Below the pieces are notes generated by a model. That model worked only from the letters and a program-made list of their open reading frames with translations. It was not told where the DNA came from and ran no database searches. From the NCBI GenBank assembly GCA_017534535.1, contig JAFXVZ010000035.1:1-37323 (forward strand): a stretch of DNA of 37,323 bases, given 5' to 3'. The position numbers and the translations under genes are program-made. Within the stretch, counting starts at the first letter, position 1. The number at the start of each line of letters is the position of its first letter. Of this stretch, positions 24,008 to 37,042 are shown piece by piece. The DNA is from Bacteroidaceae bacterium (GTDB lineage Bacteria > Bacteroidota > Bacteroidia > Bacteroidales > Bacteroidaceae).

Positions 24008-24520
24008 TCATCCCAACATATACCGAACCTTCTTCCGGTTGTTATCAGGCCTTACCGCAAAGTGAATCCAGTAATCATACTTAGGTGGCTTACCTTCCTC
24101 TTTTTCCTTCAAGCGGCGCTCCAGGAACAACTCATCGAAGTCACGGTTGTTGGTTTCCGACATCTTGTTCAGAATCTGCATATACCTATCAGCCTGCAAC
24201 TTGTTCTTGCAGCGGATATCCACCGCACAGCCTCGCAAATGATTGGAAGTCTTGCTGGGCTTCAATCCTGCCTTCGCCATCTTCTCAGAAACCTGAACCG
24301 AGCGAAAACCATGATTGATGATAATCCCCTGCTCCTTAGGTCCCTTTACATACAACTTGTTATAGGTTCTACGCAGTTCCTCCAACCAATACTCACAAAT
24401 GCCCACCAGATTCTCGACAGCCTCCAGCGGAGGCTCATTCCCGTCAGCTGTCTTGTAACTCGTCTTGGTCAACTCACCCAGCGTGAAGTGCTGGGAGAGT
24501 TTGAATGTTTTGTCTAACAT
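24008..24520 (-). CDS. M15-family peptidase (endolysin-like D,D- or L,D-peptidase)
   Basis: Zinc peptidase of 170 residues with the peptidase M15_3 layout: FTLGELTKT near the N-terminus, FRSVQVSEKM, then zinc ligands His94 and Asp101 in SNHLRGCAVDI and His153 in YWIHFAV. There is no signal peptide, as in phage endolysins. Such proteins commonly sit next to VirE/DUF3987 genes in Bacteroidales genomes. It follows the DUF3987 gene by 12 bp and ends at a terminator, so it is last in the operon. Cell-wall cleavage is inferred from the family. Confidence 0.88.
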   Translation of the reverse strand: MLDKTFKLSQHFTLGELTKTSYKTADGNEPPLEAVENLVGICEYWLEELRRTYNKLYVKGPKEQGIIINHGFRSVQVSEKMAKAGLKPSKTSNHLRGCAVDIRCKNKLQADRYMQILNKMSETNNRDFDELFLERRLKEKEEGKPPKYDYWIHFAVRPDNNRKKVRYMLG

Positions 24521-24532
24521 AATTTCAACGCG

Positions 24533-26866
24533 CTATTTATCACTTCTGAATCTATCGCTCTTCTGGAAACTGTATTCTGTATTCTGTATCACATACCCAC
24601 GATTCATCCACGCCCTAATCATCTTCATGGCTTTATCTTGGGCGTTCGTAAAGCCCTCTTGCTGCCTCACCATCTTTACATCGTTCAAGGTGAATTCATC
24701 TTTCAGCAGCTGCAACAGGTTTCTTGGGCCACGGGTACCAATACGGGCATCATCACCATTGGAAGCCTTCTCGATGTCGTTGCCAAAGAACTGCATCTTG
24801 CACCACAAGTCGTATTCCAGACTCCAACGGATGAAATCCTCAATCGAACGCTCCCACTTCTGACCATTCGCCACATACAGTACACATGCCTTCAACCAGG
24901 CAATCACGATGGCACGATGCGACAGGTTCCAATAGACTTCAGATTGCGATAGTCTTGCAAACTCGGCACACTCTTGCTGCAACCTCCTTGCCAGCTTATA
25001 AGCCTGCTGACAATCAATCAATCCGCGAGCTGAAACCAAATTGTCAATATAGGGTTTCAACGCTTCGTCAAAGGCAGCGTCATATTGACCATAAATGGGT
25101 TGCTCTGCACCAATTTCTGTCTCTGGTATCGTGCAGAAATTGATTCTGCTGATAGGGCCATCCGTCAATACTCGGCTGAAGAACCTGCGACCTTTCAATA
25201 TAGTTGTACAGGCATTCCAGTTGAAACGACATTCAGGACGGGCAGTAACCGACTGCGTGCCCACACGTGTTTGTCCATACTCTGCTCCCGGGTCAAAAGC
25301 CAGGCACATCAGTTGGAAATGCTGCTTGCCCGTCTGCCCTTTCAGCTGCTCAAACAAATCCAGTTCGTTCAGCTTCACATAAACGAAGTGTCCTTCTGCC
25401 TCATCCATACGTGTTACTAAGGCTGGTTTCGTCATATCTGCATCTATAATCTGAATCACCAGTCCCTCGGGACGCATCATCTTGTCCTTATTGGCACCCC
25501 TTTTCTGACAATCCTTCTTCCACTCGGCCTCGCGCCTTTCATTCTCCTGGTCACGTCTTTTTATGTCAGCCATGATGTGACGAATAGGCTCGTCTATGCA
25601 ACCCTTACCGGCTCCTGTTCCTGCCATCAGGCAGTTCATCAATGTAGCCTCATGCTCCACATTGTCGGTATAAGAAAAGCGCACGTCGCACAAATGTGTA
25701 GCCAATGGTGGGAACACTGCATGAGCCACCGCAGCCTTATAGATATCAGGCGTATTCGAGGTGAGCAACTGAATCAGTTTCGGTATCTTGGCTGGCATTA
25801 CTGGCGGTTCGCTTTGCTGTACGTCGATGCTTGTCTGCTGATTCTCATCCAGGCTCTTCCCATCTGAGAGCCTCCTGCTTCGGGCAAACACACGCCGTTG
25901 AAACTGCGTCATCTTCTGATGAGGGTCGGTATATTTCTGGTAGAAGTCGCTCACCAAGTCCTGTATGTTCTTGTCTGCCCAGTTGGCAGGCATCATCTCA
26001 CTCAGCACGCCACAAAACTCGGCTTTCGTCAACAGCTGCGCAGCCCCCACGCTCAAGATACTCTTTACAGCCTCGTGCCTGGCACCTTCCTCCACCAGCA
26101 CCTTAGCCTCCAACTCACACTCCTTCATGCAGGCATTGAAGATGTAGCGTGTCCGCTCGGTAGCAGGAGAAAAAGGAATGTTTTCATCCTGTGTCCGCGC
26201 TGGGCTTTCCGCATGTTCCTTACCCGCCATTTTTCTGCCATCCACATCCAGACCTCTTTGCAAGAAAGCTTCCCTACGTTCTTCCAGTTCTTGCCCTGCA
26301 ATCGGTTCCAGCCAATGCTCAGAGCGATATATTTCCTCATCTATGCCTGTCAGGTAGATAAACCTTTCAGGCGTGGTGCACGACTCATCATAGGGCACAT
26401 CAATCTCCTTGCAGAAAGCCTTTTGTGCCTCTTCTATGGTCATCCCTTTGGGGATGCGTATGTAGATATGCACCTTCTTACGGGCAGAATACTCCATGCG
26501 CAGCACCTGGTCGAACCACTCCGAATAGGTGTCGGCATTCAGTTCCAAAGACCGTTGTATGGCTTTGTCAACCAATTCTTTGTCATCCACATCCACACAA
26601 GTCATATAGGTAAAGGCTTCGGGTATGATGTCTGCCTGTGCGCGGTGATTGTTGTTGAAGCGTGAATAGTGGGGACAGATGAAAGGCAAACTGTCCTTCA
26701 GCTTCTCATTGCCGTCTCTGATCTCGGCCACCCTCTTTCTCAGCCAGTCTTCTGAGAGCAGGCTGTCCACCTGCTCCGAAGTCTTGGTTACCGCATACCC
26801 TCGGTTGTCGTAACGTCCGTTACCGGTATGCATAGTGTTTATGGCTATCAGTCTTTTTTCTTCCAT
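24533..26866 (-). CDS. BT4734/VirE-type protein with DUF3987 helicase/primase-like domain
   Basis: A 777-residue replication-type protein of the kind found in Bacteroidales mobile elements and prophage remnants. Residues about 1-190 resemble the BT4734/VirE N-terminal (primase-like) domain, with FICPHYSRF, VDVDD and ARKKVHIYIRIP. Residues about 230-340 form a VirE-type linker. From about 355 there is a DUF3987 ATPase region with a P-loop-like GTGAGKG (416-422). The C-terminus ends YVIQNTEYSFQKSD, encoded by a short GATACAGAATACAG repeat found again at the right edge of the window. Ten bp after the 124-residue gene, 12 bp before the peptidase. Enzymatic activity is not demonstrated for this family as far as I know. 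Confidence 0.85.
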   Translation of the reverse strand: MEEKRLIAINTMHTGNGRYDNRGYAVTKTSEQVDSLLSEDWLRKRVAEIRDGNEKLKDSLPFICPHYSRFNNNHRAQADIIPEAFTYMTCVDVDDKELVDKAIQRSLELNADTYSEWFDQVLRMEYSARKKVHIYIRIPKGMTIEEAQKAFCKEIDVPYDESCTTPERFIYLTGIDEEIYRSEHWLEPIAGQELEERREAFLQRGLDVDGRKMAGKEHAESPARTQDENIPFSPATERTRYIFNACMKECELEAKVLVEEGARHEAVKSILSVGAAQLLTKAEFCGVLSEMMPANWADKNIQDLVSDFYQKYTDPHQKMTQFQRRVFARSRRLSDGKSLDENQQTSIDVQQSEPPVMPAKIPKLIQLLTSNTPDIYKAAVAHAVFPPLATHLCDVRFSYTDNVEHEATLMNCLMAGTGAGKGCIDEPIRHIMADIKRRDQENERREAEWKKDCQKRGANKDKMMRPEGLVIQIIDADMTKPALVTRMDEAEGHFVYVKLNELDLFEQLKGQTGKQHFQLMCLAFDPGAEYGQTRVGTQSVTARPECRFNWNACTTILKGRRFFSRVLTDGPISRINFCTIPETEIGAEQPIYGQYDAAFDEALKPYIDNLVSARGLIDCQQAYKLARRLQQECAEFARLSQSEVYWNLSHRAIVIAWLKACVLYVANGQKWERSIEDFIRWSLEYDLWCKMQFFGNDIEKASNGDDARIGTRGPRNLLQLLKDEFTLNDVKMVRQQEGFTNAQDKAMKMIRAWMNRGYVIQNTEYSFQKSDRFRSDK
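24566..24593 (-). repeat. GATACAGAATACAG repeat in the DUF3987 3' end
   Basis: The minus strand reads TGTGATACAGAATACAGAATACAGTTTC, apart from a variable number of (A)ATACAG units the same as plus-strand 37175-37210. The two copies are in inverted orientation and about 12.6 kb apart. Confidence 0.75.
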
Positions 26867-26876
26867 GATGCCCTCC

Positions 26877-27251
26877 TTAGTCCATTAACTCTCTAATTAC
26901 CTTGTTGGCTATCACGCTGGCCTGTCTTACCAGCTCGGCAGGCAGCTCGTCTAACAGCTGCTTGGGCAGCGAGAAGAAGAAATAGTACCTGTCGTCCTTG
27001 CCTAATGAGAACGAACTGTTGTCGTCCCTGAAGATTGGCGTGTTCTTTTCGCGCTTGGGTACCTCTGTCATATACACGTTGCCGTCACGCATCCTCTTTA
27101 CCTTGAACTGGCCGCAATGCTCCTCCATCTCTACTGCTTCCAGGCACTGGAAATCCAATGTCTTCATACCATTCTCCAACTGACCATAGGTCATAGTTCC
27201 TTCAGCCTCAATAGGCTTCAATACTGTTTGTTTTTTTAATTTCTCATTCAT
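26877..27251 (-). CDS. Hypothetical protein, accessory module
   Basis: Not recognised. 124 residues, soluble, no signal peptide or membrane segment. Charged and Met-rich N-terminal half, then KREKNTPIFRDDNSSFSLGKDD and YYFFFSLPKQLLDELPAELVRQA, which looks like a small alpha/beta fold ending in a helix. It is 10 bp from the DUF3987 start and probably cotranscribed with it. Coding is supported by tight spacing and the good ATG; no function can be stated. Confidence 0.75.
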   Translation of the reverse strand: MNEKLKKQTVLKPIEAEGTMTYGQLENGMKTLDFQCLEAVEMEEHCGQFKVKRMRDGNVYMTEVPKREKNTPIFRDDNSSFSLGKDDRYYFFFSLPKQLLDELPAELVRQASVIANKVIRELMD

Positions 27252-27335
27252 TTTCTAAGTTGTTTGCGAGAGAAGTTTTGAGAGTTCCGTTGGCCAACTT
27301 TAATCACGTGAAGACCTCTTCCGCTTCAACTCAGG

Positions 27336-27605
27336 TTAATTAATTTGAACGATCTCGTTCACCATAATGTCCTGATAATAGACACCATTATTCTCATGCG
27401 TTGAGAACTTCAGCCCCACCGCCACCAACTGCCCGTGAGCGAACTTGCTTTTGGCAATACCACCCAGCATCGAACACTGGTACTCGTCGGAATAATCGTT
27501 ACCAAGCTCCTTGAGTCTGATAAAACACTTGGCCTTCTCGCCATCCTTCGTCTGCACCTTGATTACTTCGGTCTGTGCAACGACCTTCAAAACTTTTGTT
27601 ACCAT
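27336..27605 (-). CDS. Small OB-fold-like protein, possible single-strand DNA binder
   Basis: 89 residues from ATG 27605 (MVTKVLKVVAQ); an upstream in-frame start at 27644 adds an unlikely AT-rich extension. Alternating beta pattern (TEVIKVQTKDGEKAKCFIRLKE, then LVAVGLKFSTHENNGVYYQDIMVNEIVQI) suggests a five-stranded barrel like SSB or DUF3127 proteins. Placement upstream of a helicase/primase-like gene fits a DNA-replication accessory. The assignment is by pattern only and could be wrong. The 84-bp gap to the next gene holds no visible element. Confidence 0.72.
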   Translation of the reverse strand: MVTKVLKVVAQTEVIKVQTKDGEKAKCFIRLKELGNDYSDEYQCSMLGGIAKSKFAHGQLVAVGLKFSTHENNGVYYQDIMVNEIVQIN

Positions 27606-27744: not shown

Positions 27745-27768
27745 ATTCTTAAAACAATAAAAATTAAA

Positions 27769-27801
27769 CACCAGTGAAATCCGTCGTGGAAATCACTGGT
27801 G
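27769..27801 (-). terminator. Hairpin between the coiled-coil gene and the DUF3987 module
   Basis: CACCAGTGA (27769-27777) pairs with TCACTGGTG (27793-27801); an inner TCC/GGA pairing is separated by a symmetric AA/AA bulge. On the minus strand it is followed by TTTAATTTTTATTG. It can serve as terminator for the upstream coiled-coil gene, or as a leader structure of the module operon. Confidence 0.65.
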
Positions 27802-27834
27802 CAAATATTCTGAATTACTTTTTATGTCTGCAAG

Positions 27835-27924: not shown

Positions 27925-28686
27925 TCAAGAAATAAATCTTCTCAGAAGTCCTTCAAATATGCCCATTAAGACCTTTTGCTCTTGGCTGGTTGACTTGTCG
28001 CTTAGTTTGGCCGAGAGTGTTTTCTTGCTTGGATAGTATTCGTTGAAAGCAAAAAGCACATCAGCAATTTGAAGCGTTGGGGCATTGATAATATTCATTC
28101 TTAACACATGACCTATAAAGAAACATATTTTGGTGACCTGCGTATTATGCAAATTGCCACCCAGGAACGCAATCAGTTTGTCAGTATGTTCAGCAACCAA
28201 AACATCCAATGCCTTGCAAAAGCAGGTGTCATTAACATGATAGATGTAAGATGAACTATGTCCTTTGGCTCGGCACTCTATAATCTGACCGTTCTTTGTC
28301 GCTATAATTCGGAAGATGGATTTCAGCCTATCAGAAAAAGTTTCAGTATGGAGAGGTGGAACAACTATGGGCAATGGTGTTTCTTGAATAATCGCTGGCA
28401 GATTTATCATTTCCACGCCCTGATCATCCTTTTTGATGTCAACACTACCTGACACATTCAAGGTAACAAGAGGTCCTTTCTTTGACCAGACGTCCCTATA
28501 CTCTTGGTGAATCCTGTTTATGTTTTTCTCCACAGCCAACTCTCTTTCAAGTTTTTCACAATGTTGGCACTTTTGGTTATACTTGTCAGCTTCACCATCT
28601 ATTCTTTCTTGCATCCGCTTGATGGTAGCTTCATGTTGGTCGATAATACCCTGCAGGTATTTTACATTCTCTTCGTTATTTTTCAA
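27925..28686 (-). CDS. Hypothetical protein with N-terminal coiled coil
   Basis: Not recognised. 253 residues, no signal peptide or membrane segment. Residues 1-65 are a heptad-rich coiled coil that includes CQHC (about 40-43). A hydrophilic middle with VTLNVSGSVDI and PLPIVVPP follows, then a C-terminal half of about 130 residues with predicted helices (KALDVLVAEHTDKLIAFLGG; ADVLFAFNEYYPSKKTLSAKL; VLMGIFEGLLRRFIS). The gene is flanked on both sides by structured non-coding DNA, with a palindrome-embedded promoter about 230 bp upstream, and is separated by hairpins from the DUF3987 module. It could be a mobile-element protein or part of a small defence unit; neither is shown. Confidence 0.8.
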   Translation of the reverse strand: MKNNEENVKYLQGIIDQHEATIKRMQERIDGEADKYNQKCQHCEKLERELAVEKNINRIHQEYRDVWSKKGPLVTLNVSGSVDIKKDDQGVEMINLPAIIQETPLPIVVPPLHTETFSDRLKSIFRIIATKNGQIIECRAKGHSSSYIYHVNDTCFCKALDVLVAEHTDKLIAFLGGNLHNTQVTKICFFIGHVLRMNIINAPTLQIADVLFAFNEYYPSKKTLSAKLSDKSTSQEQKVLMGIFEGLLRRFIS

Positions 28687-28696
28687 ATTTGATTAA

Positions 28697-28712
28697 AATA
28701 ATTGGAATTATT
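28697..28712. promoter_or_regulatory. AT-rich palindrome before the coiled-coil gene
   Basis: AATAATT-GG-AATTATT, perfect 7-bp arms, 11 bp upstream of the ATG at 28686. Position suits an operator or a translation-blocking hairpin. Confidence 0.45.
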
Positions 28713-28762
28713 GACTCCGTGAATTTAAAGAAAGAGGGTGGCATCAGTAGAAAAATAGCAAG

Positions 28763-28874
28763 CCCTTCAACACCACTTGTCCTGCCTGTTACAAACTACC
28801 AATGCTCACACCTCCGATGAGTGTGAGTCGGTAGCTTCGGCTTCAGGACTATCTATAAAATTGGTGTTGAAGGG
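28763..28874 (-). ncRNA. Four-helix nested RNA-like structure
   Basis: Four inverted repeats nest in order. P1 is 13 bp perfect (28763-28775 with 28862-28874). P2 is GTCCTG/CAGGAC (28779-28784 with 28844-28849). P3 is CTACC/GGTAG (28796-28800 with 28830-28834). P4 is CTCACAC/GTGTGAG (28805-28811 with 28821-28827) with a 9-nt loop. Internal loops are asymmetric. On the minus strand P1 is followed by GCTTGCTATTTTTC, a terminator-like U-run. It lies downstream of the minus promoter at 28920-28951 and upstream of the coiled-coil gene, so it is either a long structured 5' leader or a separate small RNA. No known class was recognised. Confidence 0.65.
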
Positions 28875-28913
28875 AATCCGAAAAGCATCGAGCTCTACCC
28901 TAATTAATATGTC

Positions 28914-28951
28914 TTGGTGCAAAGATAAAAAATGTATCTTAATGCACCAAA
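28914..28951 (-). promoter_or_regulatory. Promoter inside a long palindrome
   Basis: TTGGTGCA-AAGATA ... TATCTT-AA-TGCACCAA (28914-28950) is a near-perfect inverted repeat. The minus strand has TTTG (28951-28948), 20 bp, TATCTTTG (28927-28920), so the palindrome covers the whole promoter, as expected for a repressor operator. Predicted start near 28914. Confidence 0.62.
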
Positions 28952-29017
28952 TGGTATCTAAAATTAATGCATATTTTCCTCACTTTCCTATTAAAAATGA
29001 TTACTATACTTACCTCT

Positions 29018-29105
29018 AAAAAAGATGGGCGATTCTCGAAACCTAATTGCCAAGCGGGCTCAGTAAGTATGTTCAGATGGCGCACAGCCGTTTCTATTTA
29101 TAAGA
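29018..29105 (-). ncRNA. Predicted small RNA of about 88 nt
   Basis: A minus-strand transcript begun near 29105 by the promoter at 29112-29141 would end at a hairpin, AATTGCC (29045-29051) with GGCGATT (29028-29034, one G-U), followed by CATCTTTTTT (to 29018). The body, TAAATAGAAACGGCTGTGCG and onward, has no ORF of note. Boundaries are predicted, not observed. Confidence 0.5.
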
Positions 29106-29111
29106 TTGGCG

Positions 29112-29141
29112 CAAAGGTACGCTATTTTTTCCACACTTCAA
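29112..29141 (-). promoter_or_regulatory. Promoter of the predicted small RNA
   Basis: Minus strand TTG (29141-29139), 19 bp, TACCTTTG (29119-29112). The stretch 29142-29296 between here and the mcrC stop holds no gene or clear terminator. Confidence 0.58.
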
Positions 29142-29296
29142 GGTATATTGTCCTTTTTTTATAAAACTTGATGAAATTTTTATACTCATGTACACATTAA
29201 CTTTTGCTATCTCACGTTTTGAGGTTGATGGGTTATTTGTAAATGATATTGTAATCTCTGGGCTTAGTGGTACACTTTCAGATTACTATTTCCATT

Positions 29297-30346
29297 TTAG
29301 GTACCTTTGAGACTAACAAAACTATTTAATTGTTCCTTTATTGTCTCAAAATCTGTGTTCAAATCCAGTGTCCGAAAGTAAATAGAGTTACCATCCTTAC
29401 GCTTAATATGACCATTGGGAACTATATCCTCTTGTGTTTTTGCGTAGAGCAGCATACCATCCACATTTCCTTTGTGTTCATCATCATATTCGGTCACATA
29501 GGTATGTATCTGAAACAAATTATGTGAATGAATACTAGACTTATCGAATTGTTTCTGAATAGTACGTGAGTAATACTTTGTGTCAATAATCAATGTTCGT
29601 TCTCCTATTGTCAGCAGAATATCTGTCTGCATATCCGGAAGAATATTAGTAGTTGACTCTTCAGTAATAATACTCCATTTTATCTGTGCTGCACAAGGGT
29701 TTAACTCAGGATGATGTTTTTTATAAAACTCCAGCACAAATTTCTCGAATAGTCTGCACATATGCTCATCAGAGAAGCTTCGCATTTTATATTCTCCTTC
29801 ATCTGTTGTCAAAAGCCACTCTCTTATTATGAAATAGCAGAGATATGTTAACATGCGATAGTTTCTGTTGTTGCGATCAAAATGAAGTGCATTCCAACGA
29901 ACGGCGCGAACATCTATTGTTTGAACATTTTGAAAGAAAAGCATGAGCTGTTTGAGTTTCGCTTTTTTATCCTTCTGTACATCCGAATGCTTAATCAGAA
30001 TGGTAGCTGTTGTTAAAAGTATCTGATTGTATATGTTATTCTCGGACAATTCATCATAATTGCAAGAAATTTGACGATTATTGCGCATTTTGTTTGCTAT
30101 GGTACCATTTATATCAATCTTTCCTTTAACAGTAAGCAAAGATTCCTTGCGAACCACATACTCACGGTGTAATCCCTGCTTTAGTTGATACGAGATACCT
30201 CTAGCCAAAATTTCAGCAAAAAGGTCGTAAATATCATCAAACTTCTCGCCTATAATTTCTGCATAGTTATTCTGCCTAAGCTCTTGGAAAGCATAGGCTA
30301 ACATATAGTAAATGTTACGAATCAATATGCCTTTATCTTCTGTCAT
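29297..30346 (-). CDS. mcrC: McrC-type nuclease subunit
   Basis: 349 residues. Partner of the GTPase McrB in a modification-dependent restriction complex that cuts DNA carrying modified cytosines. The N-terminal region has LIRNIYYMLAYAF, typical of McrC. The C-terminal PD-(D/E)XK site is intact: Asp242 in MQTDI and Asp255-Thr-Lys257 in IIDTKYY, with the same 13-residue spacing as I recall for E. coli McrC. It overlaps the mcrB stop by 4 bp (ATGA), so the two are translationally coupled and expected in fixed ratio. Last gene of the defence operon. Confidence 0.92.
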   Translation of the reverse strand: MTEDKGILIRNIYYMLAYAFQELRQNNYAEIIGEKFDDIYDLFAEILARGISYQLKQGLHREYVVRKESLLTVKGKIDINGTIANKMRNNRQISCNYDELSENNIYNQILLTTATILIKHSDVQKDKKAKLKQLMLFFQNVQTIDVRAVRWNALHFDRNNRNYRMLTYLCYFIIREWLLTTDEGEYKMRSFSDEHMCRLFEKFVLEFYKKHHPELNPCAAQIKWSIITEESTTNILPDMQTDILLTIGERTLIIDTKYYSRTIQKQFDKSSIHSHNLFQIHTYVTEYDDEHKGNVDGMLLYAKTQEDIVPNGHIKRKDGNSIYFRTLDLNTDFETIKEQLNSFVSLKGT

Positions 30347-32823
30347 TTAAGAGCATTCCTCAGTTTTTGCACCTCTTGTTCAAATCGGTCATTATTATCA
30401 AACCAATACTCTCGGAGCATAGGAATAATGTCGTATTCTACGATATTACTCAAATCGTAATGCCCTCCAAGATTGCACAGATAGCTATGGCCAATACAGA
30501 ATCCAGAACCCAACGAGTCATCATCTTCAATAACCTTATTCAAATCAATAATTGCTTTAACAAGATTATTTAAATGTGGGTCCATCAACTTCTGAATATA
30601 CTCCATAAACTGTGGCGACTCAAACCCAGGCTTCATCTCGAAGAAGCTGAATCTGCGACGAAGTGCATAGTCAATCATCGCTAAAGAGCGGTCAGCTGTG
30701 TTCATCATACCAATGATGTACAAGTTGCCTGGCACAGAAAACATTTCATCTCGGTACGACAATTGTATGGGCTTATCACGATAATCGTTTTCAATCAGCA
30801 TAAGCAGTTCACCAAAAATCTTACTCATGTTGCCACGATTAATCTCGTCAATAATAAAGAAATACTTGTTGTCTCTATCAGCGCGCGCTTTTTGGCAAAA
30901 CCTATAAAAGACTCCTTCTTTCAAATCAAAGCCACCATCTTCGTTGGGTTTATAGCCCATTACAAAATCTTCATAGCTATAGTTCTGATGGAATTGTACT
31001 TGCATCACCCTACTCTCGTTTTTTTCTCCCATAATGGCATATGCAAGTCTTTTAGCTGCATATGTTTTACCAACACCTGGGGCACCTTGAAGAATAAGAT
31101 TTTTCTTTCGAAGAAGTAAATTCTCTAATTGGTCAAATTCTTTATAAGTAACAAAAACATCATCAAGGAAATTAGACTTGTCATATGTCTCGATGACCTC
31201 TTCCTTAGGTAACGGATTCTCATCACGAATTATATCCATGATGACATCAAATTCATCTGGAGTAACCTTAAATAAAGATCCTTGTGGGTTCTTCATATAC
31301 TCCATGTTTTTGAGTTCTTGTATCTTCTTAAATGATGACAAATCAATAGGCGTTGGCAGTTTTTCAGCCATCTTAAAATAGAGAGATTTCTCATCTGCAG
31401 CTTTACTTATTTCGAGTAATCCAACTATCTGTTTTGTTGGCGTAGCCTCATAACCAATAACCACATCACCTGCTTTAGCATCTAAGAAGTTTTGAAATAT
31501 CTTTCTCTTATTTCCTCTCTCATTATATAGAGTATAATCCTGTTCTTCACCCACTTTCATGCTCGCCAGGCTCCAAATTTTAGGCTTAGCACACAACCAC
31601 CAGTATTGATTTCCTTTTGTTTCTTCTTGAACAATTGCAGTTTTTGCATCGAATAAACTATTCAGTTTATCCACATAATCAGCATATGATGTAATATTGG
31701 TCAGAGTCTTCATAACATTCTTCCCACTTGCTTCCCACTCACCAATATTGGTCCATCTTACCCTTCTTATATTTTTATAGTGAGAACGATCATTATCAAA
31801 CATATAGTCTGATTCAACTATTCCACGACCAATGATTTTGTACATCCCTTTCTTGGCAAACACAATATCACCAGGTTTCATTTCTCGTGAGAATTGCCAA
31901 ACAGCCAAAGAGTCATTTACTGCCGACCCGTCTTTAGATCTCAGTCTTTTGACTTCATATCTCATTTCTTCACGTGATTTGTATTTTCTCAAATCTCCCA
32001 ATTCATCCCACCCAATACACATAAAACCTTTATCAGTACAATCAGTCCATTCTGAAGCATTCTCTCCTGGTGAATAAATCCAATAATTTTTTGTTGAAGA
32101 GGATGATATGGTTGTCTTTTCCAGGGGATCATCTCTTTTACTTGCTCCGTCATTGTCGATATAAGCATCATATGAAAATTCTGCAAAGTTAGAGCAACCT
32201 GGGATTGTTCCATTCTGAATCTTTTCACTCAGACTCAGCATAATACTATTGTATTCCTTAAACGGGACAAACTTTCCATTGAAAGAAGCAATACCCAATA
32301 AAGTCAATTTTTCTCTATTGTGGCCATCTAATGCAAGATATTTATCTGGTCGTATCCAAAATAATCCAAATGTAATATTATATTTGATGATAAACTGGCC
32401 ATTAAGTGCGTCATAGTCATCACGAATATCTTTATCAAGTACCGCATCTTCAAATACACTCCATAGTCTTTCTATATCACCGTCTTCCCTATCCTTCCCA
32501 TAACCAATAAAGCTACTAAGCATGTTATTCATTTCAGGAACACCATGAAAATCATTAGGAGTATCTGAGGAAATATCTAAGAAACGCTTAAACTTAGCAC
32601 ATATTTCGTATTTTTTGTCATACGAAATTTGGCGATTAATGATGGCCATTACAGTAAAAGGGTCTAAATCAGGAAGCCTTATGCCATCTTGCGTATCTTT
32701 CAGATGGGTAATATGCCCTTGTAAATTACTATATATCCAGTCTACTAACGGTGCTCTGTTATTTTTATATCTCAAGAGTTTCTGCGCGAACTCTGTATAA
32801 AAAGGAATCCAAGTAAATGCCAT
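30343..32823 (-). CDS. mcrB: McrB-type AAA+ GTPase with two PUA/EVE-like reader domains
   Basis: 826 residues, much longer than E. coli McrB (about 460). Residues 1-240 form an unassigned N-terminal domain containing LFWIRPDKYLALDG. Residues about 246-370 (YWIYSPGENASEW, MCIGWDELGDL, GDIVFAKKG) and about 407-490 (YWWLCAKPKIWSL, FQNFLDAKAGDVVIGYE) are PUA-superfamily readers; the second is a good EVE domain. The AAA+ motor follows: Walker A GAPGVGKT (580-587), Walker B FFIIDEINRGN (655-665), the McrB signature MNTADRS (707-713) and the arginine-rich DYALRRRF. EVE domains bind modified bases, so this protein probably selects 5-methyl- or hydroxymethylcytosine DNA. Thirteen bp after the ORF6N gene. 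Confidence 0.93.
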   Translation of the reverse strand: MAFTWIPFYTEFAQKLLRYKNNRAPLVDWIYSNLQGHITHLKDTQDGIRLPDLDPFTVMAIINRQISYDKKYEICAKFKRFLDISSDTPNDFHGVPEMNNMLSSFIGYGKDREDGDIERLWSVFEDAVLDKDIRDDYDALNGQFIIKYNITFGLFWIRPDKYLALDGHNREKLTLLGIASFNGKFVPFKEYNSIMLSLSEKIQNGTIPGCSNFAEFSYDAYIDNDGASKRDDPLEKTTISSSSTKNYWIYSPGENASEWTDCTDKGFMCIGWDELGDLRKYKSREEMRYEVKRLRSKDGSAVNDSLAVWQFSREMKPGDIVFAKKGMYKIIGRGIVESDYMFDNDRSHYKNIRRVRWTNIGEWEASGKNVMKTLTNITSYADYVDKLNSLFDAKTAIVQEETKGNQYWWLCAKPKIWSLASMKVGEEQDYTLYNERGNKRKIFQNFLDAKAGDVVIGYEATPTKQIVGLLEISKAADEKSLYFKMAEKLPTPIDLSSFKKIQELKNMEYMKNPQGSLFKVTPDEFDVIMDIIRDENPLPKEEVIETYDKSNFLDDVFVTYKEFDQLENLLLRKKNLILQGAPGVGKTYAAKRLAYAIMGEKNESRVMQVQFHQNYSYEDFVMGYKPNEDGGFDLKEGVFYRFCQKARADRDNKYFFIIDEINRGNMSKIFGELLMLIENDYRDKPIQLSYRDEMFSVPGNLYIIGMMNTADRSLAMIDYALRRRFSFFEMKPGFESPQFMEYIQKLMDPHLNNLVKAIIDLNKVIEDDDSLGSGFCIGHSYLCNLGGHYDLSNIVEYDIIPMLREYWFDNNDRFEQEVQKLRNALK

Positions 32824-32836
32824 ATTTAATTAATCT

Positions 32837-34033
32837 TTATTGTTTCAATAATTGTAATATCGTTTCTGGTGAGACCTCCATCTTCGTGACAGCACACAAG
32901 CTAAGGCCCATATCTTTCACACTGGCACCAAGCAGATAGACATCATCGTCAATTATTAAGAACCTATCGTGGTTCTTTTGTGGTAGTTGCACGAACTTGA
33001 TTTCACGATTCTGCTCATTGTGCTTTTTCAAATCCGTTTGGAACGACTCATAGTAGCGAGTATGAATCGTAGCATCCACATTATCTGCACGCTTGTCCAA
33101 AAGAGACAGCACACGATCATCCACGAAATTGTCTATCAAAACGATCCGCTGCTTGGCACTCCTCACCAAGTCTGACACGTAAGCCCATGCATCCCATACG
33201 CAACCTGTAGGAAAAATCTGCTCTGACAACAGCTTAGGCGATTGCTCGTCCATCTTTGAAAGAATTGTATTGATTTTATCGTCTGTCTGCTCCATCCATA
33301 GCTTACTCTCAATTTGTTGCCTTTCCACTCGATCAAGGCGCTGGAAAATATGGGCATTTGCTGCCAGATAGCGGCGCATACCAACAAAGGCATCCATAAT
33401 TCTGATACTGGTGTCAACTGCTTTCTGACTGGTCACAACTGCCGATAGCATCGATATTCCCTGTTCAGTAAAAGCGTAGGGAGCCGAAGAAGAGTGTTTT
33501 AAACTCTCGAACCGGTCACAATTTGTGACCAGTTCCTTCGTTTCTTGTTTTGTCAGTTGGAATCTGAACCTTTCAGGGAAACGAGCAACGTTTCTTTTTA
33601 CCTGTTGGTTTAGAACCTTTGTTCCCACCTTGTAAAGCATCGCTATATCCCTGTCTATCAACACTTGTTTGCCTCTTACGACAACAATAAGCTTTGCAAT
33701 ATCAATATCTTCCTCAGAAGTAGATTCAACAGTAACCAACTGGTCGTAATTCGCGACCAGTTCTTTGGACCGGTCACAATTTGTGACAGGTTCCTCGCTC
33801 TCGCTATTATCTTTGATTGATTGTAACATCCCCAGCATTGGTTCAAATTTTGAATTCAGAGCATAAAACATGAACTGGTTTCGTCTATCCTTTGAGAATT
33901 TTATCTGCTCAAGATATGTTACACAGTTATTGATCCAAGTATAGTACTTAGTTGAGTTGCTACGGCTTTTGATATTAGTGGTCTGTAGCTTTTTTCCTTC
34001 AGCTATAAGTTCGTCTATTGTCATATCAATCAA
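32837..34033 (-). CDS. ORF6N-domain protein with degenerate phospholipase D-like C-terminus
   Basis: 398 residues. Residues 1-75 are helical. About 112-215 is an ORF6N (KilA-N-related) DNA-binding domain: VLIDRDIAMLYKV, FPERFRFQLT, YAFTEQGISML. A coiled segment (225-262) leads to a PLD-like domain (about 275-398) with HDRFLIID at 355-362: H-x-R-x4-D, the HKD motif with Arg for Lys, so catalysis is doubtful. It lies between the MmeI-like gene (6 bp) and mcrB (13 bp) in one operon. It may regulate the operon or assist DNA recognition; unproven. Three peptide repeats (EPVTNCDRS, ELVANYDQLV, ELVTNCDRF) are encoded by palindromic DNA. Confidence 0.88.
   Translation of the reverse strand: MIDMTIDELIAEGKKLQTTNIKSRSNSTKYYTWINNCVTYLEQIKFSKDRRNQFMFYALNSKFEPMLGMLQSIKDNSESEEPVTNCDRSKELVANYDQLVTVESTSEEDIDIAKLIVVVRGKQVLIDRDIAMLYKVGTKVLNQQVKRNVARFPERFRFQLTKQETKELVTNCDRFESLKHSSSAPYAFTEQGISMLSAVVTSQKAVDTSIRIMDAFVGMRRYLAANAHIFQRLDRVERQQIESKLWMEQTDDKINTILSKMDEQSPKLLSEQIFPTGCVWDAWAYVSDLVRSAKQRIVLIDNFVDDRVLSLLDKRADNVDATIHTRYYESFQTDLKKHNEQNREIKFVQLPQKNHDRFLIIDDDVYLLGASVKDMGLSLCAVTKMEVSPETILQLLKQ
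33509..33535. repeat. 27-bp palindrome in the ORF6N gene, copy A
   Basis: GAACCGGTCACAA-T-TTGTGACCAGTTC: 13-bp arms with one mismatch around a single base. It encodes ELVTNCDRF on the minus strand, inside the ORF6N domain. Confidence 0.88.
33738..33794. repeat. Two further palindromes in the ORF6N gene, copies B and C
   Basis: Copy B (33738-33762) is AACTGGTCG, 7 nt, CGACCAGTT. Copy C (33767-33794) is GGACCGGTCACAATTTGTGACAGGTTCC, nearly the sequence of copy A. They lie 4 bp apart and encode the linker before the ORF6N domain. A half-copy ACTGGTCACAACT occurs at 33428-33440. Confidence 0.85.
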
Positions 34034-34039
34034 ACTATT

Positions 34040-37000
34040 TTATTTCGTCTTTTCACTATATAACTTAAACAGTTCGGCTACACACATGCTTTCAGTAAAT
34101 TGACTACCAGCTTTCCAGCCGTATGCCTCCATAACGGCACGGTCGTTATCTTGGTGGGCTTTGCGAAGCTCAACAGGCATAGTCAGATCGTCATACAAGT
34201 CAGCTAAAGAACTATCTGGATATAAAGCGCGGGCATCCAATATAGCCTGGGCAGTTTTCTCAATCTTTGCTTGATAGGCTGGTGGCTCTATTGGCTCAGA
34301 CCAAGGATAAGACGTTACTGTTCCTTTTGGCCAAGGGAAGTTATTATATACAATATCCTTTGAGTAACGATAACGCATTTCTAACCTTCCACAAACGGCT
34401 CTCACCCAAGCCATGTGAACGTTGCTCTGCAAAACACCGAAATGATAGAGATTAGCATCAGTTAAAACAAATACCAAGTCACTCGCTAATGCATCTGGTG
34501 ACATAAAACCCATCGGAATATAACGACGCTTTTCTGAGGAAACTTTAGGAATGATAATAAAGTTTGAGTCTGGCATGTTTTCCACATGAAAACGAGTAGG
34601 TCGTTCAGCAAGCTTTTGGGTTCCTGCACTAACACTAGCTAAACGTAAATCACGAACGGCTTCTACTCTCTTCAAGCAATGTGGCATGGTACGCAATTCA
34701 GCAGGAGAGCAATGACCTAACCACAAGCAATAACGAGGTTTCTGGTGAATAAATTCCTCAGAACCATACCAAAGCTTAAAGTACTTAGCAGATTTGGGCT
34801 CTACCTTTATAAAATCTTCCATCTCCTCTTTAGTAAAGAGGTAGTTGCCACCATCTATAGGTTTATTTCCTATCTTTATCCATGGAACATCGCAAAGCGG
34901 CGCTATACGGCTTTCAACAAACACATTAGGAGCATCAAGTAAATAAGGGTTGATATTCTTAGCCTTGATGACCTTATCATTATCGAATATTGTTCCTTCC
35001 TTATAGTCGGTAAGTGCATCATATTGTGGTTTATCCAAAGAAGTAATGCCTGGTATATGATCTTGAGGTTTCCAATTTTCTGGTCCTTCTTTTCTACTGA
35101 AACCTACAATCACACAATGTACATGGGCTTTGATTGTAGCTTCACTGTCCCATCTAAAAGTTCGATGGGCAAAGTCAATACAAAGTCCTCTTTCCATCAA
35201 AGGCTTCCACAAATTAGCCACTTGCTCACCTTGACAAATACTATTAGTTGACACGAAAGCCACTTTAGCCCCTCCACATTGTCTTGATTGAAACGCTTTC
35301 ATATACCAACAACAAACATAGTCCAGGTTGCCCACATTCTTCCATTTCTCACCAAATATGTGAAGCACATCCTCTTTTTGTTCCTTGCTCATTTGACGAG
35401 CCCCAACAAATGGTGGATTACCCATAATGTAGTTATAATGTACCAAAAGACCATATTTCCATTCTTTTGCTTCTTCTGGTCTTTCTTTGGTGGTAACAAT
35501 AAAACGATCAGCTTGGGTGTCTTGGAAATAAGCAGGTACTGTACGAGCAGCTAATTTATCTGGAATTCCATAAGGACATTCAACTAAATTCCAGTTCTCA
35601 CGCAAAGCATTGCCTTCTTTAATATTGGTATAGCTCTTCAGTGGCAAGAAGTCAATATCCTTGTGGATGATATGCTCTGTCTTTGTCAGCATCTGTGATT
35701 CTGAAATCCACAAAGCAGTTGTGGCAACAGTAACGGCAAAGTCGTTAATTTCAATGCCATAGAATTGGTTGATATTGACCTTAATAGGATTCAGGAACTC
35801 ACCTATCATGCCTTGTCCATGATACATCTCACGAATGACCTCATTCTCCAGACGACGCAAGCTAAGATAGGTCTCTGTCAGGAAATTACCACTACCACAG
35901 GCTGGATCCAAGAAAGTAAGGCTTGCCAGTTTGTCTTGATATGCCGCTAACTTGCCGACTCGCTTTTTCTCTACTTTCTCTTCCAAAATGGTATCCAGCT
36001 CTTGACGCAGGTCGTTCAAGAACAAAGGGTCTATCACCTTATGTATATTCTCTATCGAGGTGTAGTGCATACCTCCACTTCGGCGTGTATCTGGATTCAA
36101 AGTACTTTCAAACACGGCACCGAAAATGGTGGGCGATATCTCGCTCCAGTCAAAATCCAGGCTGGCATTGTGGATGATGATGTCTCTTAACTGCTCGGTA
36201 AACTGTGGTATCTCAATTTCTTCCTCAAACAAGCCACCATTGGTATAAGGAAATGCCTTGAGGTCGTCTTTCAAATATTTGCTGCGCTTTTCTTCAGGTG
36301 ACTTCAACACGTCAAACAGTCGGATAAGTGCATTGCGAAAATCATCGGCCTCATAATGCGAGAGATAATTGCAGAACTGATCATGTGAAAATATGCCAGC
36401 ATCCTCGGCATACAAGCAGAACACCAAGCGAACGCAAAGAATGTTAAGCCAACGCTGTGCTTGGGGGCTGTTATCAGCGTATTGTTCCTTCAAAGCATCG
36501 TAGATGCGACCCACAATCTGGCCTGCCTCCATCGAGACACGTTCTTCTTTCTTAATATGCTCGCTCTTTTCGTTAACCAAAAACTGCAGACGATAATACT
36601 CCTTACCCAAGTTTGCCAGCAATATCTGCTCAGGCTCACCATTGGGCTGCTCCATATCATATACCAGGAACTCTTGAAAGTTGCAGGTAACCACCCAACG
36701 GGGATGCTCACTCAAAGGCATATTGGCTATGTAGCGCTTGGCTTGTTGAAAGGGTGTAAACTTGGACCCATCACTCTGTAGAACGGGCAACCGAAGATCT
36801 TTGTCAATGGATTTCTGTTCTATCAAGACTTTGGTAGAGCGTATATGGCCATCTATGAAATTGGTCTTGTCAACCTTTACCTGTTCCTCATAGCGGATAA
36901 ATGTGGATGGGGTTTCTACTCCAAAGACACTGGAGAGCAAATCAAACCAGAAAGGCTGTGAATCACCTTTTTCGTAACCACGCCCTTCCCATCGTTTGGC

Positions 37001-37042
37001 AAACTCGGCAGCTGCCGCCGCCATCTGTTTTTCTGTTTTCAT
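34040..37042 (-). CDS. MmeI-like (type IIL) fused restriction endonuclease-methyltransferase
   Basis: Single polypeptide of 1000 residues that should both cut and methylate DNA. N-terminal nuclease site: Asp64-x10-Glu75-Gln-Lys77, the D-ExK layout of MmeI. A helical spacer follows (about 170-360), then an N6-adenine methyltransferase domain with SAM motif FLDPACGSGNFL (377-388) and catalytic NPPF (542-545). The target-recognition region (about 640-880) and a C-terminal helical part complete the MmeI_N/hel/Mtase/TRD/C order. All key residues are present, so an active enzyme is likely; its recognition sequence cannot be read. First gene of the defence operon; ATG 37042. Confidence 0.93.
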   Translation of the reverse strand: MKTEKQMAAAAAEFAKRWEGRGYEKGDSQPFWFDLLSSVFGVETPSTFIRYEEQVKVDKTNFIDGHIRSTKVLIEQKSIDKDLRLPVLQSDGSKFTPFQQAKRYIANMPLSEHPRWVVTCNFQEFLVYDMEQPNGEPEQILLANLGKEYYRLQFLVNEKSEHIKKEERVSMEAGQIVGRIYDALKEQYADNSPQAQRWLNILCVRLVFCLYAEDAGIFSHDQFCNYLSHYEADDFRNALIRLFDVLKSPEEKRSKYLKDDLKAFPYTNGGLFEEEIEIPQFTEQLRDIIIHNASLDFDWSEISPTIFGAVFESTLNPDTRRSGGMHYTSIENIHKVIDPLFLNDLRQELDTILEEKVEKKRVGKLAAYQDKLASLTFLDPACGSGNFLTETYLSLRRLENEVIREMYHGQGMIGEFLNPIKVNINQFYGIEINDFAVTVATTALWISESQMLTKTEHIIHKDIDFLPLKSYTNIKEGNALRENWNLVECPYGIPDKLAARTVPAYFQDTQADRFIVTTKERPEEAKEWKYGLLVHYNYIMGNPPFVGARQMSKEQKEDVLHIFGEKWKNVGNLDYVCCWYMKAFQSRQCGGAKVAFVSTNSICQGEQVANLWKPLMERGLCIDFAHRTFRWDSEATIKAHVHCVIVGFSRKEGPENWKPQDHIPGITSLDKPQYDALTDYKEGTIFDNDKVIKAKNINPYLLDAPNVFVESRIAPLCDVPWIKIGNKPIDGGNYLFTKEEMEDFIKVEPKSAKYFKLWYGSEEFIHQKPRYCLWLGHCSPAELRTMPHCLKRVEAVRDLRLASVSAGTQKLAERPTRFHVENMPDSNFIIIPKVSSEKRRYIPMGFMSPDALASDLVFVLTDANLYHFGVLQSNVHMAWVRAVCGRLEMRYRYSKDIVYNNFPWPKGTVTSYPWSEPIEPPAYQAKIEKTAQAILDARALYPDSSLADLYDDLTMPVELRKAHQDNDRAVMEAYGWKAGSQFTESMCVAELFKLYSEKTK

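Follow-up and report, generated by a model that had tools for sequence, protein, structure and literature searches.

A structured RNA of the Bacteroidales, preceded by a predicted promoter of its own, is best explained as a bistable leader that would switch the following gene in cis, a reading to which a probability of roughly 55% is assigned. It was recognised on the minus strand of the window, i.e. the whole 37,323-nucleotide stretch of DNA that was analysed, which is an entire contig of a 2.7 Mb genome rated 89% complete. Comparison of the family members shows that the predicted pairing of four nested helices (P1–P4) is conserved while the sequence of P1 and P2 changes almost freely, and that the predicted apical part, P3/P4 with a short bulge, is conserved as well. 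Comparison also shows complementarity of an element 3′ of P1, termed D, to the P4 3′ arm; D could take the place of the 5′ arm of that helix. The RNA is probably the 5′ leader of the gene behind it; we infer that it acts in cis on a sensed signal.

The hairpin, its predicted promoter and its relatives

The sequence-only reading had described four nested inverted repeats of 13, 6, 5 and 7 bp, and all their arms are present where it had placed them. Read along the minus strand, with the 5′ arm given before the 3′ arm, P1 pairs 28862–28874 with 28763–28775 (13 bp, the inverted repeat extending to 16 nt at 94%), P2 pairs 28844–28849 with 28779–28784 (6 bp), P3 pairs 28830–28834 with 28796–28800 (5 bp), and P4 pairs 28821–28827 (CTCACAC) with 28805–28811 (7 bp). 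The minus-strand RNA adds A-U and G-U pairs to the core of P3, giving about 10 bp, and the 3′ arm of this helix lies 3′ of the short conserved bulge. Fold and covariation support P1, P2, P3 and the 5′ arm of P4, joined for P1 by the repeat search. The minus-strand RNA folds at −54.1 kcal/mol (z −6.05) and the plus-strand RNA at −49.0 kcal/mol (z −6.15); for neither strand was any of 200 dinucleotide shuffles as good, which bears out the earlier claim that the nesting exceeds chance. The more stable strand in the window is the minus strand, reading toward a coiled-coil gene. The structured unit is larger than 28763–28874, as it also includes a small 5′ hairpin, P0 (GAGC...GCTT, 28895–28883, minus strand), and the downstream element D (TGCCACCCTCTTTC, 28743–28730, minus strand). 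A GAGC-type motif (GAGC, GGGCC or CAGCTG) corresponding to P0 occurs in 24 of 25 loci.

A promoter just upstream of the hairpin had been proposed, and one is indeed predicted on the coding strand of the hairpin, with a −33 element TTTG (28948–28951) separated by a 20-nt spacer from a −7 element TATCTTTG (28920–28927). This arrangement, TTTG-N20-TATCTTTG (28951–28920, minus strand), we take to be a promoter of the Bacteroidetes type by its consensus; such promoters are outside the reach of the sigma-70-type scan that was run. From the position of these elements, transcription would start near 28912–28916. Of the 26 members, 22 have a −7 box of the form TAnnTTTG in the 150 nt searched, as against 7.6% expected per locus, and 4 have none there; in 19 members it lies 99–127 nt before the 3′ arm of P4. 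The minus-strand U-run pointed out earlier (CTTGCTATTTTTC) exists as a U-rich stretch, but its T's start about 8 bases past the stem and no terminator is called there; the terminator scan, which among the family loci covered the window only (28500–29320, minus strand), called none.

Relatives of the hairpin were recognised upstream of homologues of the coiled-coil gene. A homologue with 77% identity, on contig CACYLU010000019.1 of the uncultured Bacteroidales RUG12062 (treated as the same contig as G171:C19), has upstream of it a nested hairpin of quite different sequence, which stands behind a DpnII-type restriction system, and a 44%-identical homologue in genome G026 has a third. A covariance model built from these two hairpins and that of the window (R1) yielded two further copies, both in G191, one before a different coiled-coil gene and the other before an unrelated gene. 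A two-sequence model (R2) missed locus L016, while R1, built with L016, recovers the G191 pair. A five-member model (R3) gave 6 places in 4 of the 158 genus genomes (E≤0.5), 22 places in 17 of the 399 family genomes (E≤0.1), of which two, both in the genome of the window, had been counted before, and a single additional place in the 198 order genomes. The last, in G713 from another family, is the sole match of the order sample outside the own genome, and itself carries the promoter box, P4 and D. From 27 distinct places, L072 (31.2 bits) was dropped because the conserved apical part is missing, leaving 26 copies: 6 in 4 of the 158 genus genomes, 19 more in the family sample and 1 in another family.

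Twenty-one of the 26 places are independent of the building of R3; the window scores E 6e-31 but is one of the five building sequences. The R3 E-values are rough and calculated per genome, so that some chance matches are possible at E≤0.1. Prevalence is a lower bound because the wide searches scored only part of the first-look candidates in each genome (e.g. 7 of 204), and rescoring of 22 genomes with 101–130 candidates each added no copies. Carrying genomes hold one or two copies, and the second copy of the window's genome (G000:C42:36877–37050; L060/L081) was detected only by the covariance model. By eye, this copy precedes another coiled-coil ORF. No copy was found in the plasmids and phages searched, nor in viral contigs by protein or pattern search. 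The four short matches (L002–L005) obtained by blastn of 181 bases against 148 relatives were set aside as chance, L002, by eye, falling within a long reading frame. The apical hairpin, searched as a DNA pattern, gave matches in 15 of the 158 genomes; beyond the own genome, G171 and G026, the other 12 showed no nested hairpin on folding, and the isolated apical-like hairpin at the G187 pattern place (R1 E 4.6) was excluded from the counts.

Conserved pairing and replaceable stems

The conservation of the structure is evident from folding as well as from alignment. Across 25 loci, the fold z-scores range from −3.2 to −6.5, and the fold of the coding strand beats that of the opposite strand in all 25, as expected because G-U pairs count in RNA. 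In a structural alignment (A8) of the 20 members with E≤0.001, the weaker L096–L100 being left out of the 25 loci, 87.3% of the cells are paired and double-sided changes occur in 30 of 42 pairs, including 4 of the 9 pairs of P4; since the alignment was fitted to the structure, these counts lean toward it. Its covariation score is 0.514 as compared to 0.189 ± 0.012 after shuffling (0 of 500 as high) and at most 0.102 with slid partners. The 26th copy, L101, stands outside A8, the 25-locus folds and the energy sets for the pairing of D with P4 and P0. A sequence-only alignment of 12 members recovered P3/P4 but not P1/P2, and single-sequence folds give the outer stems without a model. As the loci are related, the shuffle and binomial figures overstate independence.

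Compensatory changes in homologues, the check that the sequence-only reading had itself proposed, are therefore present, and they support its suggestion of a folded RNA outside the known classes, which might be a riboregulator. It had left the choice between a folded RNA and a cruciform; the former is upheld, and the strand preference and the promoter box speak against the latter. On the same two grounds, its further suggestion of a mobile-element end is not supported.

The inner part of P1 and P2 are hypervariable, and three loci display how they vary. The first genes of L096 and L097 are identical at 474 of 480 nucleotides (159 of 161 residues in the protein), the flanks at 37–40 of every 40 positions in alignment windows 80–200 and 320–480, and the apical core at 35 of 38. 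The windows that hold the strands of inner P1 and P2, in comparison, are identical at just 13 of 40 and 20 of 38 positions, and each RNA nevertheless folds into paired stems. Conversely, the RNAs of L097 and L098 are identical at 180 of 184 positions, whereas their first genes share only 236 of 468 nucleotides. By these patterns, the stems are replaced together and apart from the gene. The wholesale replacement of paired stems between near-identical loci with a fixed core is puzzling. It may be that inner P1 and P2 form an exchangeable identity module, recombined independently of the gene and selected to be different but paired, with the constant core and D as the working parts; this explanation is regarded as rather doubtful. 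If true, it would point to, e.g., an RNA that, in defence and mobile islands, determines self versus non-self or partner specificity.

Competing helices and the leader model

The 3′ arm of P4 (GGAGGTGTGAGC, 28804–28815, minus strand) has two possible partners, the 5′ arm of P4 and D, as indicated by covariation and duplex energy. The complementarity to D covers the 3′ strand of P4 and the next bulge base. The duplex energies of the P4 3′ arm with D sum to −371.5 in the 25 loci, as compared to −223.9 ± 9.7 for shuffled sets, the best of 300 such sets reaching −267.2. Individually, p≤0.05 is reached in 18 of 25 loci with D-side shuffles and in 16 of 25 with arm shuffles, the best partner in L090 and L058 depending on the stretch searched. 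The helix of the window itself is imperfect (p 0.053 with D-side and 0.224 with arm shuffles). Pair types covary between the P4 3′ arm and D, e.g. GACGUGG with CCACGUC in L086. The bulge base, unpaired in the hairpin, forms A-U with D in 16 and U-A in 4 of 26 loci and is unpaired in 6; the four U-A loci are close relatives and may represent a single event. P4, furthermore, often keeps a mismatch that is absent from the pairing with D. At the family level, two mutually exclusive helices, P4 and that of its 3′ arm with D, each have covariation support. Their energies differ by −8.9 to +4.4 kcal/mol, with D favoured in 15 of 26 loci, in what is a rough comparison of a hairpin with a duplex. A further possible partner of the D region is the 5′ strand of P0: over 24 loci, the energy is −213.5 as against −162.9 ± 8.6 after shuffling, with p≤0.05 in 8 of 24 loci (window, 0.130). 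D sits tens of bases before the start codon, without covering it.

The genes that follow the RNA are diverse. In the window, the first downstream gene (27925–28686, minus strand) encodes a 253-aa coiled-coil protein with a long helix and a small helical domain; its listed start is TTG, whereas the 77%-identical homologue starts with ATG. The protein has no Pfam match, and its predicted fold (mean pLDDT 72) no match among solved structures, the best Foldseek E being 0.99. This family occurs in few genomes (4 of 158 in the genus sample and 2 of 399 in the family sample, the own included in both), and the loci of its distant relatives L017–L020 gave no R1 match at E≤5. It also provides the first gene in L012 and L016, while the first genes of L084 and L086 encode S24-peptidase proteins and the first large genes elsewhere encode an HU-HIG protein (L087) or DUF6261 proteins (L090, L093, L100), several having no Pfam match. 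As the downstream genes are unrelated, the RNA is no private partner of the coiled-coil protein, and the earlier proposal of a non-coding partner is not borne out.

In 22 of 25 loci a same-strand ORF begins no more than about 350 nt away, its start overlapping the end of the model match in L088 and L092; of the exceptions, L081 has one by eye, L083 reaches the contig edge and in L095 none was seen. This close ORF, together with the RNA's own promoter, suggests that the RNA is the leader of that gene. In the model proposed, state 1 would have P4 closed and D free, and in state 2 D would be paired with the P4 3′ arm and, in part of the family, also with the RNA's 5′ end. The balance between the two may be set by a protein or small ligand that recognises the conserved bulge at the apex, and this would alter expression of the downstream gene in cis through termination, processing or translation.

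The main rival of the bistable leader is a stand-alone, trans-acting RNA, released by termination after P1 or by processing after D, whose partner would be an island protein, as in toxin-antitoxin or defence RNAs, and in which D would be a long-range closing helix and no switch. This reading is judged distinctly less probable. It agrees with the RNA's own promoter, with the exchangeable stems and with the pairing of the 5′ end to D over shuffles in the 24-locus set, as if closing the RNA, although the end-closing pairing is significant in just a third of those loci. It is also in keeping with the restriction-modification genes that lie upstream of the RNA at 7 of the 25 loci. The unrelated downstream genes, however, leave no shared adjoining partner, and no terminator is called in the window. 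It is unlikely that the RNA is instead a leader for processive antitermination or operon control, with a factor loaded on RNA polymerase at the P3/P4 bulge reading through a long island operon. The conserved apical part with free outer stems and a gene of the 777-aa protein cluster within about 4 kb in seven loci (window, L012, L016, L058, L081, L086, L098) would suit such a role, but the genes behind the first one are on the opposite strand in L087, L089, L092 and L093, and no factor gene was recognised.

That the hairpin is a DNA element (cruciform, integration site or transposon end), with its palindrome acting in single-stranded DNA, is very improbable. In favour of this are the long inverted repeat, the swapping of stems between loci and, in the window, L012 and L016, a location with variable cargo on one side and constant genes on the other; against it are the strand asymmetry, the promoter box, the conserved apical mismatch and bulge, the pairing with D and the low copy number. 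A test for a transposon end or MITE gave one DNA match in the own genome and, by eye in the window, no flanking duplication. Retron ncRNAs likewise have a long variable hairpin and ends able to pair, the latter seen here between the 5′ end and D in some members. A retron-like or reverse-transcribed RNA is nonetheless hardly credible and largely refuted, as RVT_1 matches occur in 10 of 20 genomes but never on an RNA-bearing contig, and the incomplete genomes of the window, G171, G026 and G191 have none. A chance palindrome or an ordinary intrinsic terminator, to which the U-rich stretch 3′ of P1 might point, has practically no probability left, being refuted by the covariation and the fold z-scores over shuffles, besides the lack of a terminator call. 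The RNA may nevertheless be linked with mobile islands, given that some loci have it at the border of variable cargo and constant genes.

Known RNAs and neighbouring features

The bistable leader resembles riboswitches and attenuators, in which two mutually exclusive helices share one strand ahead of a gene. It differs in that D would invade the apical hairpin rather than the base, that the downstream genes are unrelated and that neither a terminator nor sequestration of the start codon was found in the window; it is a candidate switch. The Bacteroidales are an important order in gut and rumen, and to them is added a structured RNA family of 26 copies with a concrete, testable two-state model.

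The family was found in none of the catalogues searched. Rfam 15, whose families likewise include structured bacterial RNAs with a conserved apical core, gave no match, in line with the earlier statement that the hairpin matches no familiar RNA class: its 4227 covariance models returned nothing at gathering score in the window, just a below-threshold hit to a human lncRNA family that falls outside the hairpin, at E≤5 in 28600–29300, and nothing at E≤1 in 17 further members. In the literature search, no publication on the family came up. Bacteroidetes motifs are present among the candidate RNAs from the human microbiome (PMC8040213) and in a 2010 set of 104 motifs (PMC2864571). One of them, HMP2_4078, is a 109-bp palindrome near phage-type domains, and two others, Bacteroides-2 and GUCCY-hairpin, have no Rfam number in the published table. 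The family was compared with these 104 motifs and with the 3161 microbiome candidates by description, and may overlap with one of the latter.

The RNA of the window lies between two groups of same-strand genes. Downstream (24008–27605, minus strand), proteins of 89–102 aa and 124 aa, a 777-aa protein of a primase/ATPase-like cluster and an endolysin-like protein are encoded. The 777-aa protein has no Pfam match of its own, but falls in the same single-linkage cluster as an L012 protein with a BT4734-like N-terminal domain, also downstream of the RNA; the passages on BT4734-like primases in the paper on that family mention no RNA leader (PMC5862659). Upstream (29297–37042, minus strand) are defence genes for McrC, an McrB-like protein with an EVE domain, an ORF6N/PDC-S05 protein and an MmeI-type IIG restriction-modification enzyme. 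Residues 247–359 of the McrB-like EVE/AAA protein (30343–32823, minus strand) match the candidate defence family PDC-S02. Among the neighbours scanned, restriction-modification genes stand no more than about 1.1 kb upstream of the RNA in the window, L012, L057, L082, L083, L086 and L088, and other loci have ordinary upstream genes, e.g. glutamine synthetase in L089. With restriction-modification genes as neighbours, the RNA may be a regulator of island or defence genes.

A second conserved leader, with promoter box TACCTTTG and about 100 nt, occupies 28995–29128 (minus strand) of the window, where no ORF of at least 40 aa stands close behind it. Eleven copies of it occur in the genus sample, spread over 7 of 158 genomes with 3 in the own genome; it precedes three unrelated small-ORF families in 8 of the 11 loci and displays strong sequence conservation with almost no covariation. 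A short hairpin leader, TTTGCACCAGTGATTTCC...GGATTTCACTGGTG, follows the coiled-coil gene at about 27765–27805 (minus strand), and similar ones were seen by eye behind the distant homologues L008–L011. In G192, a distant coiled-coil homologue (L009/L017) stands directly behind a CRISPR array, and no copy of the RNA was found there. Tandem repeats of 42 nt, differing in sequence, separate the RNA from the next large gene in L093 (7438–7617) and L091 (6587–6765); similar-looking repeats were seen by eye in L087, L089, L090, L094, L095 and L100, some of them after a short ORF with GRPPP.
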